A DNA stretch of 64,000 nucleotides from Oligoflexia bacterium (GTDB taxonomy: Bacteria > Bdellovibrionota > UBA1018), in assembly GCA_014376785.1 (NCBI GenBank), contig JACMQW010000082.1:1-64000 (forward strand), read 5' to 3'. Positions within the stretch are counted from its first letter, which is position 1; every line of letters begins with the position of its first letter. Position numbers and translations under genes: made by a program. The notes under the pieces are model-generated. The model made no database searches. It saw only the letters and a list, made by a program, of their open reading frames with translations, and was not told the origin of the DNA. Shown one piece after another: positions 43,323 to 49,209 of the stretch.

Positions 43323-43709
43323 GTGCAACACCTTTTAATCGTAGAAGATTCGATTGAATTCCAAAAAATTATTTCAAGGGTACTAAACGACTACGAACTC
43401 ACTTCCGCCTTAAGCGCTGAAGAGGCATGGACCCAATTGGGCACTGCAAAGTTCGCCCTTGTTCTGTTGGATATCTCACTGCCGGGTAAAGACGGCTATT
43501 CTCTTTTGGCAGATATGCAGGCGTCCGAACTTTTTAGAAATATCCCGGTGATTTGTTTAACGGGAAAAGTCGCGACTTCCGACCGAGTAAATGCATTTCG
43601 GCTCGGCGCAGATGATTTCATCGAAAAGCCTTTCGATCATCAGGAACTGAAAGTGCGGGTTGCCGCGAAACTAGCGAAGTCGCTTTCGCGGACTGCTCAT
43701 GACGGATGA
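43323..43709 (+). CDS. Single-domain response regulator (CheY-like receiver)
   Basis: 128 residues from GTG 43323, chosen because GGGGA lies at good distance and the sequence then opens QHLLIVEDS as in receivers. ATG 43302 without a ribosome site is the alternative. It has acidic residues in VEDS, the phosphorylated Asp in LLDISLPGKDG, Thr in CLTGK and Lys in EKPFD. No output domain, so it probably shuttles phosphate between the two kinases. The stop overlaps the hybrid kinase start by 11 nt. Confidence 0.9.
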   Translation: MQHLLIVEDSIEFQKIISRVLNDYELTSALSAEEAWTQLGTAKFALVLLDISLPGKDGYSLLADMQASELFRNIPVICLTGKVATSDRVNAFRLGADDFIEKPFDHQELKVRVAAKLAKSLSRTAHDG

Positions 43710-46044
43710 TTTAGCGATTTTTTTCGAGGTGTCGCAGCACCTCCTCTGCATAGCGGGAGCAGATGGTTTTCTGAAGCGAGTGAATCCATCCTTTGAAAGA
43801 GTCTTGGGATTTTCAGCGACAGAACTCCTAGCTCGGCCCTATATGGATTTCGTTCTCCCCGAGGATCGGGCAGGAACGCTTGCACACGCCGAAGGGGTTC
43901 CCAGCGAACGTGGAAACTCCGAATTTGAAAACAGATACGTTTGTAAAGACGGCTCTATTCGCCATTTATCTTGGCGGACGACCACCGTGGATGATCGCAT
44001 TCTTTGCATCGCACACGACGTGACAGACGAGAGAGAAAAAGAAAAAAAGACGAAGCAGCTGAATGACGAAGCACTTCGTGAAGCAAAAGAAAGTTTCAGG
44101 CACCTTGCCGAAGCCATGCCCCAAATGGTCTGGAAAACGGACGCAGCTGGGAATCAACTGTACTCGAACGCAAGGTGGAACGAATACACCGGGTCCAATC
44201 AGAGCGATGAGCAGGATTCGAAATTATGGGAGAACGTCGTCCACCCCGATGATTTCCAAAATTCAATCACGAATTGGACGAGGTCGCTGATATCCGGAGA
44301 CAGCTTCGAAATGCAATATAGGCTGCGTAGGGCGATCGATGGCATCTATCGCTGGCACCTTGCGCGCGCGGTTCCCATAAAGGATAGCAATGGCACCATC
44401 GTTAAATGGTTCGGAACTTTAACCGACATTGATGAGCAGAAACGTTCCGAAGAGGAACTGAGAATAAGTTTAGAAGAATTACGTCGTTCTTCACTGGAAA
44501 AGGTCGAGATACTCAAGCGCGAGAAAGCGGCGCTTGAATCTTCCGATTTAAAATCGGAATTCGTCGCTACGATGAGCCACGAAATTCGGACTCCTTTGAG
44601 TGCCATCATTGGAATGACTCAGGTGTTATTAAAGGGTGAATTAGACGAAGAGCAGGCCGACATCGCAAAGACGATTCTCTTTTCTGCCGAATCGCTTTCA
44701 GGAATCGTGAATGAAATTCTTGATTTCTCTAAAATTGAGTCGGGAAAGATGCCATTAGAAAAAGTTGATTTCGATTTGAAGACTATTCTTTTCGGGGTGG
44801 TTAATGCATCACGATTTGGCGCTGCGGAAAAAGGCATCAAGCTCCAAGTGACCATTCAACCGGAATTAGATACGTGGGTGAGTGGGGATCTCGTGAAGAT
44901 CCGGCAAGTCCTTCATAATTTATTGAGTAACGCGGTGAAATTTACTTCGCAGGGTGAAGTCTGTGTTTCTTTGGAAGCACGAGGCCATTCCGAATCTCTC
45001 CAGTCCCGTATTCGATTTTTGGTAACTGATACGGGAATCGGAATCGCAACCGAGGAGGTTTCTCGCCTTTTCGAACCGTTTGTTCAGGCGGATGCGTCGA
45101 TTGCTCGCCGCTTCGGGGGAACGGGCTTAGGACTTTCAATTTGTAAGCGGCTCATTGAGTTGATGGGCGGCGAAATCGGAGTCGAAAGTATACCAGGCAA
45201 AGGATCTCAGTTCTGGTTTGAACTCTCTCTTTCGAAAAGAACAGAAATCACCCAGCATTTTAACTTCGATAGGCCTTCAGAGGGCTCTATCACGGGCAGA
45301 ATCCTCGTCGCTGAAGACCACCCGATGAACCAGAAAGTGATTCGGTATCTCTTAAGAAACCTCGGACTTCAGATTGATCTGGTGGCTTCGGGGCGGGAAG
45401 CGGTACTTGCAAATGCGCTGCACCGCTACGACCTCATTCTCATGGACTGTCACATGCCGGACATGGACGGGTATGAAGCGACTCGTGCCATCCGTGCCCA
45501 ACCTGGAGATTGCGCGCGCGTTCCGATTTACGCGCTCACCGCAGACGTCCTCCAAAATACTCCCCAGCGGTGCCGTGAGGTCGGAATGAATGGGTATTTT
45601 CAAAAGCCCATCCAAAGCGAAAGACTTTACTCTGTGATCGCTCAGTGCTGCACGAGACCCACGCGCGATCTGATGGAAAATCAGGCTGCGGTATCACCGT
45701 TAGGAAAAGTACCGCCCGATTTCGACCCGGCGGCCCTTCGGGTTTTGGAAAATCTGAATGCCGAGGGTCAGCCTGATATCGTCAGGGAGCTCGTGAATGG
45801 ATTTCACCGCGACACTCCTGCTCATCTCGCGCGGATTTTGGATGCGATAGAACGCCAAGACCGTTTTGCATTGGAACAAGAGGCGCACTCTTTGAAGTCA
45901 GTTTCGGCAGTGCTCGGCGCGATGAATGTTTCAAGGCTTTGTGGACTGCTTGAATTAGAAGCGCAGAGAGAAAGTTCGGTTTGTGCAAAAATGGTCCTTT
46001 CCGAGCTTCATGATTCGTATATTCGTTACTTGGATGAGACCTGA
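43699..46044 (+). CDS. Hybrid histidine kinase PAS-PAS-HisKA-HATPase-REC-HPt
   Basis: 781 residues, no membrane segment. PAS domains are at about 5-112 and 132-247. HisKA has His294 in MSHEIRTPLSA, HATPase_c has the N box at Asn411 and the G2 box GGTGLGLS. The receiver (about 534-645) has phospho-Asp583 in LMDCHMPDMDGYEA and Lys in FQKP. A C-terminal HPt has His730 in EAHSLKS. All modules for an internal His-Asp-His relay are present; the final response regulator is not obvious, unless it is the upstream receiver. Confidence 0.93.
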   Translation: MTDDLAIFFEVSQHLLCIAGADGFLKRVNPSFERVLGFSATELLARPYMDFVLPEDRAGTLAHAEGVPSERGNSEFENRYVCKDGSIRHLSWRTTTVDDRILCIAHDVTDEREKEKKTKQLNDEALREAKESFRHLAEAMPQMVWKTDAAGNQLYSNARWNEYTGSNQSDEQDSKLWENVVHPDDFQNSITNWTRSLISGDSFEMQYRLRRAIDGIYRWHLARAVPIKDSNGTIVKWFGTLTDIDEQKRSEEELRISLEELRRSSLEKVEILKREKAALESSDLKSEFVATMSHEIRTPLSAIIGMTQVLLKGELDEEQADIAKTILFSAESLSGIVNEILDFSKIESGKMPLEKVDFDLKTILFGVVNASRFGAAEKGIKLQVTIQPELDTWVSGDLVKIRQVLHNLLSNAVKFTSQGEVCVSLEARGHSESLQSRIRFLVTDTGIGIATEEVSRLFEPFVQADASIARRFGGTGLGLSICKRLIELMGGEIGVESIPGKGSQFWFELSLSKRTEITQHFNFDRPSEGSITGRILVAEDHPMNQKVIRYLLRNLGLQIDLVASGREAVLANALHRYDLILMDCHMPDMDGYEATRAIRAQPGDCARVPIYALTADVLQNTPQRCREVGMNGYFQKPIQSERLYSVIAQCCTRPTRDLMENQAAVSPLGKVPPDFDPAALRVLENLNAEGQPDIVRELVNGFHRDTPAHLARILDAIERQDRFALEQEAHSLKSVSAVLGAMNVSRLCGLLELEAQRESSVCAKMVLSELHDSYIRYLDET

Positions 46045-47109: not shown

Positions 47110-47209
47110 CGGTGTCATCCTATTGGCGATTGCCATCGAAAGTTCGATGGATGCTGTTTTGATGAAATGATTTTTACCTTCCGGGTGAGAACCGCTATCA
47201 TGAGAGAGG

Positions 47210-48058
47210 ATGTTTAAAGCAAAGGACGGAACACTTTTCAGTTTATTTGCTCTCGGGGTCGCGGTCGACCAACTCACGAAATTTCTGGGAGAGCGCATCC
47301 AGGGGCGTCTAGGTCCATTCTCCGTCGAAATGCATCACAATCCTGGGATTTTTCTTCAGTGGCTTGCGACGGAATCAAGCCTCCTCCGCGTCGTTTCAGT
47401 TGCTTGTTTCTACGGTTTCATCCTTTTTATCTATTTTTCTTTGTTGTCGGCACTTTCCCTCCGTCACCAGCAGACGAAAGTCGCCCTCACGCTCTTTCTT
47501 TCTTCGATTACCGGAAACGCGGTCGATCGTATCGGGAATGGGGAAGTGCGAGATTTCTTGGTGCTTCGAATCGCTGACCGTCTTTTTTATGCAAATGTCG
47601 CGGATATCCTGATGTGGGTTTCCCTCGCCTTACTCGTGGCTTCAGCTTGGATTTACCGGCGGGATTTTTTTCCGGAAAAAAATTCGCGAATAAAGCACGT
47701 CCTCAGCAGAAGTTATCAGTATGCTTGGTCAGCAAAAGTAGCATTGGCTTCATTCTGTTCGTTTGTGACTTTAATGCTTTTTTCGGTGACCTACTTTCAT
47801 GCGGCCGAAGATTTTAGATTCATCGCATGGGGTTTGGTGATTGGGATCTTTTTTAGTGCTTTCACAGCATTTGCGGCGATTCGCTTTTCGCATCGGAGCG
47901 CAGGCGCGCTGTACGCTTTTGAAAAATACGTCGAAAAATTATTAGAGGGTAAAACAAACGAGCCATTTTCCCTGCGTGAAAACGACGAGCATCGGCAACT
48001 CGTACCACTCGCAAAAAAACTCAGAGCACACTTCATTCAAAAGGGAATTCAACGATGA
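47210..48058 (+). CDS. lspA: Signal peptidase II with extra C-terminal transmembrane and HAMP-like module
   Basis: 282 residues, over 100 longer than usual. LspA removes signal peptides from prolipoproteins. The first 150 residues are a complete LspA: VDQLTKF (D20), HNPGIF (N44), TGNAVDR (catalytic D106) and ANVAD (catalytic D132), with four membrane spans. Then come two more hydrophobic segments (about 174-198 and 203-224) and a cytoplasmic stretch (226-275: RSAGALYAFEKYVEKLL, LRENDEHRQLVPLAKKL) that looks like a HAMP domain. The stop overlaps the next start by 4 nt (ATGA). Confidence 0.85.
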   Translation: MFKAKDGTLFSLFALGVAVDQLTKFLGERIQGRLGPFSVEMHHNPGIFLQWLATESSLLRVVSVACFYGFILFIYFSLLSALSLRHQQTKVALTLFLSSITGNAVDRIGNGEVRDFLVLRIADRLFYANVADILMWVSLALLVASAWIYRRDFFPEKNSRIKHVLSRSYQYAWSAKVALASFCSFVTLMLFSVTYFHAAEDFRFIAWGLVIGIFFSAFTAFAAIRFSHRSAGALYAFEKYVEKLLEGKTNEPFSLRENDEHRQLVPLAKKLRAHFIQKGIQR

Positions 48059-49209
48059 AAATTTGGCAACGGTTTCGAGTCGCGATTATTGGGCTCTTTG
48101 GTATCACCGCGATCTTCGCGGTTTTCCAAAACTGTGGGACCGGTACAGTGGGGACTGGCGCGAGTGGGAAAGCCTCATTGGATAATGGATACACCACTGG
48201 TACCACGGGCCTTTACCTTTCTCTCAGTGCATCGAGCTATGTCTTCGCAGCTTCGAGCTCGACCCAGAACCAAACCTTTACGCTCTCGAATCCATCCAGA
48301 GAATTAGCCCGCACTCTTTCCGTTTCGCTCTCATCAAGCACTTCCGCATTCACCCTCACCGGTGACACCTGCACGAATGCCAGCCTTCCTGCGGGTGGGG
48401 CGTGTGCATTCCAAATCTCGTACGTGAATTCCAGCGCTCAGACGGTGAACGGCTCGATTTCCATCTACTACGCAAACGCGGCGAATCTCGTGCAGCCCCC
48501 CATTGCGATCTCGCTCACGGGATCTGGTAGGACCGTCATCACGACCAACACGACCACGACCGCCTCGTCGAATGGCTCTCCGGGGAGCTACGTGGCTAGT
48601 ACGGGGTTCACCCTGGGAACCGGCTCATTGAATAAATTCAGTTCGACCGCGACCTATCAAAAATCCGCGCTTTCCTGCGGAAACATCACGAAGCGCGACG
48701 TCTGTGCATCATCCACTCCCGCAAGCTTTGATGGAGCAAACTGTCATGTCGGAGCGCCTCCGTGGGGAACCGGCTTTATTTACGGTGGTAATTTCTACTA
48801 TCCACCTCACGCGGGAACTCCCTGCGCTTCGAACCACTCGTTCGATGGAAGGAACTGCGTTTTCGCAAGCGCGTTTGGAAATTCACCTTTTATCTACAAT
48901 AATCATTTCTATTTCACTCCGACGACGCGGGTGATTCCCGGCTTTTACAGCGGAATTTGCCCATTAGGATCCATTTTCGACGGCGCGAACTGCTACGCGG
49001 GAAACGTTCCTACGGGCACCGGTCAGGTCTCCACGGCTCGTTTTACCTACGATGCGAAGGCGGGCGTCACTCCCTGTGAAAGTAGCAACGGCGACTATTT
49101 CGACGGAAGTCGTTGTGTTTATTCGAATATTCCAACGGGTTGGAGCGGGTTTGTCTACCAAAGTAAGTTCTACTTTTACGCTCAAGCTTCCCGAGCCTGT
49201 GTGCCTTAA
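48055..49209 (+). CDS. Secreted/anchored protein with Ig-like domain and four FDGxxC repeats
   Basis: 384 residues. An N-terminal hydrophobic segment (9-24) ends in FQNC (Cys27), a non-canonical lipobox-like site. Residues 55-155 resemble a choice-of-anchor/ASPM-SPD-2-Hydin Ig-like domain (TFTLSNPSRELARTLSV, TGDTC, PAGGAC). After a Ser/Thr linker, four repeats of about 40 residues occupy 205-384. Each has FDGxxC (225, 263, 308, 349), another Cys, a PxGxG turn and an aromatic strand such as FIYGGNFYY. Conserved Cys spacing suggests disulfides outside the cytoplasm. Coupled to lspA by a 4-nt overlap. Confidence 0.8.
   Translation: MKIWQRFRVAIIGLFGITAIFAVFQNCGTGTVGTGASGKASLDNGYTTGTTGLYLSLSASSYVFAASSSTQNQTFTLSNPSRELARTLSVSLSSSTSAFTLTGDTCTNASLPAGGACAFQISYVNSSAQTVNGSISIYYANAANLVQPPIAISLTGSGRTVITTNTTTTASSNGSPGSYVASTGFTLGTGSLNKFSSTATYQKSALSCGNITKRDVCASSTPASFDGANCHVGAPPWGTGFIYGGNFYYPPHAGTPCASNHSFDGRNCVFASAFGNSPFIYNNHFYFTPTTRVIPGFYSGICPLGSIFDGANCYAGNVPTGTGQVSTARFTYDAKAGVTPCESSNGDYFDGSRCVYSNIPTGWSGFVYQSKFYFYAQASRACVP

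Follow-up and report, generated by a model that had tools for sequence, protein, structure and literature searches.

A signal peptidase II paralogue fused to a degenerate HAMP-like module in Bdellovibrionota, with a possible lipobox preference of its own

The window, by which we mean the whole 64,000-nucleotide stretch analysed here, encodes at 47210..48058 a protein of 282 aa that we class as a putative signal peptidase II (LspA) paralogue with a tail of two transmembrane helices (2TM) and a HAMP-like segment, hereafter LspA-HAMP (+ strand, as are all features given below in the form start..end). A ribosome-binding site rated good, GAGAGAGG, lies ahead of the start codon. Directly 5' of the gene is a weak promoter-like site (47173..47201, 9/12 matches), and a weak terminator-like stem-loop (47133..47150), of a kind whose count was not above that in shuffles, lies 3' of the upstream quinone-oxidoreductase gene. 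The TGA of LspA-HAMP overlaps the ATG of the next gene (48055..49209), which encodes a translationally coupled exported protein of 384 aa; the ATGA coupling read in the initial annotation is thus present. Two genes upstream of LspA-HAMP, positions 43699-46044 encode a large hybrid histidine kinase (PAS-PAS-HisKA-HATPase-REC-Hpt), and we found no evidence of a link between them.

LspA cleaves diacylglyceryl-cysteine prolipoproteins and is sensitive to globomycin. The LspA (Peptidase_A8) domain of the fusion spans residues 13-146 (47246..47647) and matches the Pfam profile PF01252 with 55 bits against a cut-off of 25 (57.5 bits in the genome search). The score with the TIGR00077 lspA equivalog profile, 39 bits, is under the cut-off of 73.95, and we therefore regard the protein as a paralogue and not as the housekeeping LspA. 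Fourteen residues are known to be highly conserved in LspA (PMC6952399), and the window protein retains 12 of them: D20, K24, N44, G46, N103, D106, R107, V113, D115, N129, A131, and D132. The two changed sites, Gly102 and Phe132 in S. aureus, are Ser99 and Ala128 in the window and Gly and Phe in most homologues. The four residues first singled out as active-site motifs (D20, N44, D106, and D132) are all conserved, but D106 lies outside the catalytic pair, which by homology to the S. aureus enzyme is D115 (codon 47552..47554; S. aureus D118) and D132 (codon 47603..47605; S. aureus D136) (PMC6952399). Both are invariant in homologues, and the catalytic residues do not vary across 26 diverse members of the family. 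The LspA fold is present in the AF2 model of the monomer (pLDDT 89.7, pTM 0.79), which Foldseek matches to the solved LspA structures 5dir, 6ryo, and 6ryp (E about 1e-5); the four helices and beta-cradle are recovered with TM-scores on the target of 0.64-0.69 for 5dir and 6ryo.

Changes specific to the fusions are found both near the catalytic motifs and in the extracellular loop, which is flexible. The canonical loop motif NxGAAFG becomes N-x-G-A-M/I-L-G-L-F-S-D, and the position of S. aureus Trp57, a residue that reaches over the substrate pocket (PMC6952399), is mostly occupied by Leu. The loop over the pocket is where a change in specificity would be expected, and it differs systematically in the fusions. 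We infer that LspA-HAMP is a second, specialised signal peptidase II with peptidase activity.

The C-terminal module covers residues 159-282 (47684..48055). Its helices in the AF2 model (167-196, 202-226, 228-245, and 264-277) have the layout of two transmembrane segments, TM5 (167-196) and TM6 (202-226), at 47708..47887, with positive charges on the cytoplasmic side, followed by a HAMP-like cytoplasmic helix-linker-helix (227-277; 47888..48040). The loop between TM5 and TM6 is very short in the model of the window copy and leaves no room for a periplasmic sensor domain. The cytoplasmic part carries a conserved SHR.AGP...F / LR..DE...L motif; tails across the phylum keep SHR.AGP and the LR..DE pair, and also the linker. 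Its second helix is degenerate, the usual N-x-M being lost.

HAMP domains are parallel four-helix dimers that relay signals. The initial annotation had described an LspA fused to an extra membrane pair and a HAMP-like module, and had made the latter depend on similarity in profile searches. Direct searches of the window tail gave no Pfam match to HAMP (PF00672) and were likewise negative with NCBIfam and the PDB, and HAMP was absent among the Pfam matches listed for 27 LspA tails. The comparison of profile with profile overturns this refutation. The LspA-HAMP family profile detects many stand-alone 2TM proteins of 150-200 aa that have both transmembrane helices, the start motif INxxFQ, and SHRxAGP...LR..D in common with the LspA tails, and hhalign aligns them to the tail profile over 129 columns with 99.7% probability (E 5.7e-27). 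One stand-alone protein (L020) exceeds the Pfam HAMP cut-off (27.5 vs 25 bits) and three more reach ~21 bits; the stand-alone relatives align with the TM2-HAMP region found in sensors of the WalK/MtrB/CpxA type, the WalK stretch being matched by all seven proteins tested. Because the profiles link the tail to stand-alone proteins whose C-termini match HAMP, we read it as descended from a small 2TM-HAMP protein that became joined to LspA and has since diverged. Judged by these alignments, its resemblance to HAMP is real and demonstrable only indirectly, via intermediates, and together with the AF2 helices they bear out the fusion as first described. Many genomes of the window's class encode stand-alone 2TM-HAMP proteins of 150-200 aa that lack an output domain (for example, G000:C29:34348-34758 and G000:C81:6740-7108). 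At L015, L024, L029, and L032, one lies directly 3' of a small exported, Cys-containing, coiled-coil-like protein, with which it forms a conserved pair.

A search for relatives with the single window protein returned none, and a search with an alignment of 17 sequences returned 112. In a survey of 369 Bdellovibrionota genomes, with only six candidates per genome scored, the fusion was present in 197 (E<=1e-30). It is near-universal in families f10-f20 and occurs in 11 of the 58 genomes of the window's class, in one of them split over two contigs. The named relatives that carry it belong to Bdellovibrionota and include Bdellovibrio bacteriovorus (NZ_CP102930.1) and Bdellovibrio sp. qaytius (CP025734.1). 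The window genome has a canonical LspA on another contig (C67), and such a copy accompanies the fusion in all 20 fusion-bearing genomes tested. In the tree, from which one canonical row (L013, genome G033) was ignored because it was the wrong open reading frame, the 17 canonical copies form a single clade with 100/100 support and the fusions branch outside it. These comparisons show the fusion, wherever we checked, as an extra LspA paralogue standing beside the ordinary one across Bdellovibrionota. One genome (G025) has two divergent copies of LspA-HAMP (G025:C1:812582 and G025:C6:9497). A metagenome-assembled genome titled Streptomyces griseus (L226; CALQIT020000013.1) has a Bdellovibrionota-type LspA-HAMP locus, the protein being 66% identical to that of Bdellovibrio, and its label is probably wrong.

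The initial annotation described the coupled 384-aa protein as a secreted repeat protein and a possible dedicated substrate. It is exported and has four ~45-residue Cys repeats (C...FDGxxC; 48676..49206), with FDGANC, FDGRNC, FDGANC, and FDGSRC at residues 225, 263, 308, and 349. There is more to it than that, since its signal peptide ends in an atypical lipobox, F-Q-N-Cys27 (48124..48135). The canonical pattern [LV][ASTVI][GAS]C is absent from this protein: the Cys position fits and positions -3 to -1 do not. Its lipobox-like F-Q-N-Cys makes the protein a probable lipoprotein and a plausible candidate for a substrate of LspA-HAMP. The FQNC pattern has 12 matches in the window genome; among the 11 that we read, only that of the 384-aa protein lies in an N-terminal signal. 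Residues 61-140 have some similarity to choice-of-anchor D (1.4e-6, below the curated cut-off), and the protein has no paralogue in the window genome.

The genes near LspA-HAMP elsewhere do not give the conserved synteny with the repeat protein that had been anticipated, in that they are not one family; the recurring element is an aromatic-x-N/H/Q box in an exported protein encoded close by. In three genomes of one genus (G043, G050, and G052), the downstream gene has FQNC and encodes an NHL/propeller-like protein, according to a Pfam run on the G052 copy, and in G049 a downstream pectate-lyase-like protein has FQN-GTC. In family f9, the adjoining genes have SFNHC, GYTHC, GYNQC, AFNQC, TYNHC, and SYNHC, an adjacency that rests on few loci, and the exported gene adjacent at L285 has YQQC. 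The clustering of boxes in f9 has a binomial p of 2e-5, which is not an independent test because the pattern was noticed post hoc at the same loci. At three f9 loci (L193, L199, and L200), LspA-HAMP lies 3' of a cluster encoding one protein with a twin-arginine signal and exported proteins with [FY][NT][HQ]C, at least one exported protein of the cluster having CxxCH. A different exported family without Cys, A2, is found near LspA-HAMP in G001, G002, G025, and G031, exactly the genomes with strong matches to it among the 58 of the class. Its members (L096:7829-8644, L094:8261-9097, L093:11572-12342, and L103:4997-5719) have [YF][FL]N-[GT] where the h-region ends, with an invariant Asn. For the [FY]xN-GT neighbours we considered an AatD-like glycine acylation and set it aside; AatD substrates use signal peptidase I. 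The neighbour families thus differ between lineages while the aromatic-x-polar box recurs, and several loci link LspA-HAMP to exported genes whose boxes are atypical. At the Bdellovibrio-type loci (L195-L198 and L203-L206), the fusion adjoins genes for wall enzymes (an SLT transglycosylase and a D-Ala-D-Ala carboxypeptidase of the S13 type) and not for atypical-box lipoproteins. A DEDDh-like exonuclease and MotAB-like genes are nearby in several of these genomes.

We counted FQNC preceded by two hydrophobic-type codons in the 369 genomes against a reversed control. The 129 fusion-positive genomes of f10-f20 had 1082 matches vs 150 in the control, and the 37 fusion-negative genomes of f21-f29 had 42 vs 25. 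Within the window's class, fusion-positive genomes had 1.64 matches on average and fusion-negative ones 0.60 (one-sided p = 0.0012), and f9 had no excess (97 vs 109). A degenerate polar-box DNA pattern separated families and gave no difference between fusion-positive and fusion-negative genomes within f9. In slices of real genes, the contrast between polar and canonical boxes was not significant (Fisher p = 0.09). Two of the 14 lipoproteins predicted in 200 kb of a Bdellovibrio-type genome (G196) have FQNC, and a gene-based sample of 800 kb from fusion-negative genomes of the class has no FQNC lipoproteins. Since the 15 genomes of f10-f20 scored as fusion-negative, some of them incomplete, are also in excess (72 vs 17), FQNC boxes characterise the clade in which nearly all genomes have the fusion, an enrichment confounded by phylogeny and not proven to depend on the fusion. 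The plain pattern had looked enriched everywhere in the 58 genomes of the class, and a class-wide FQNC code was dropped because nearly all the matches inspected were internal, out of frame, or not in signal peptides.

These comparisons show that the predicted protein joins an LspA domain, complete in its catalytic set, to two transmembrane helices and a degenerate HAMP module. That this second LspA also has a lipobox preference of its own is, in our judgement, an evenly balanced proposition. Its LspA part would remove the signal peptides of a subset of prolipoproteins with [FY]-[NQT]-[NHQ]-Cys, in which position -3 is aromatic and position -1 has a polar amide or imidazole, instead of the usual L-[AST]-[GAS]-Cys. 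At the window locus, Lgt would first lipidate Cys27 of the 384-aa protein, which LspA-HAMP would then cut at FQN|C. We infer both the altered preference and the substrate status of the neighbour, and canonical LspA might itself accept atypical boxes. The tail's role is probably dimerisation or gating: more speculatively than for the peptidase part, it may dimerise the enzyme or gate its activity through TM5 and TM6 by rotation of the HAMP helices. Since no output domain follows the HAMP-like module, the LspA active site itself would be the output. In its fullest form, which we put forward tentatively and with some doubt, the proposal is a second branch of lipoprotein maturation in Bdellovibrionota, with a HAMP-gated LspA of changed specificity, a separate class of [FY]-x-[NHQ]-Cys lipoproteins, and possibly, in some lineages, Cys-less [FY]-x-N-[GT] exported proteins too.

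It is possible, if unlikely, that LspA-HAMP is instead a condition-regulated backup that processes ordinary substrates and whose HAMP module switches its activity according to the state of the membrane or envelope, the neighbouring lipoproteins being coincidental or merely co-regulated. The match of the tail's relatives to sensor TM2-HAMP regions fits this, as do the Bdellovibrio loci, where wall enzymes stand in place of a linked substrate; against it are the return of atypical boxes at the locus in independent lineages and loop residues systematically unlike those of canonical LspA. We find it distinctly improbable that the tail is a structural module for dimerisation or partner docking, without signalling, which would make the enzyme a scaffolded LspA: the degenerate HAMP without direct Pfam match or output domain and the short TM5-TM6 loop without a sensor domain would suit such a role, but the phylum-wide conservation of SHR.AGP, LR..DE, and the linker goes beyond what is expected of a passive anchor. 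Ser99 and Ala128 could indicate that the window copy is catalytically inactive or serves a non-peptidase function, such as signal-peptide sensing, yet the family retains every polar residue of the catalytic site and we give this reading very little credence. An assembly or frameshift artefact joining two genes, against which the initial annotation had cautioned, is practically excluded, even if both halves exist as stand-alone versions, because about 200 homologues have the same collinear fusion, including those of B. bacteriovorus kdesi and Bdellovibrio sp. qaytius, whose chromosomes are complete.

Our preferred reading of a second, specialised LspA can be set beside known systems. LspA-HAMP has the fold, the catalytic dyad, and 12 of the 14 strictly conserved residues of LspA (PF01252, MEROPS A8; 5dir, 6ryo), from which it differs by the 2TM-HAMP tail, the extracellular loop consensus, and its status as an additional paralogue wherever checked. 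Like the HAMP (PF00672) of sensor kinases and chemoreceptors, its tail follows a transmembrane pair, starts with G-P, has a helix-linker-helix layout, and opens its second helix with D-E; in contrast to them, LspA tails lack a direct Pfam match, a kinase or MCP output, and the N-x-M element. Another predatory bacterium, Myxococcus xanthus, likewise has several copies, LspA1-4, with LspA3/4 being part of the myxovirescin cluster; the account of these copies mentions no HAMP tail (PMC8689077), and we noted no antibiotic cluster near LspA-HAMP loci. The AatD route also processes lipoproteins non-canonically, but with different enzymes, its glycine-acylated lipoproteins being made by signal peptidase I and an Lnt-like enzyme without LspA (PMC8689077). 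LspA and HAMP are each already known, and we regard the fusion as an LspA variant. Our searches of open-access papers turned up none that describes an LspA-HAMP fusion, an FQNC lipobox, or LspA paralogues in Bdellovibrio.

LspA, a target of antibiotics, is regarded as one housekeeping enzyme that reads one lipobox code. A phylum made up largely of predators keeps a second LspA, whose tail is of a signalling type, and seems to have a second lipobox code in use. If this is true, standard lipoprotein predictors would miss the proteins of the second code, possibly including surface factors of predation. LspA-HAMP also provides a testable case for the control of a membrane-embedded peptidase by HAMP. 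The second LspA and the unusual-looking cut sites of the secreted proteins often encoded beside it suggest that a particular group of surface proteins is matured along a route of its own.
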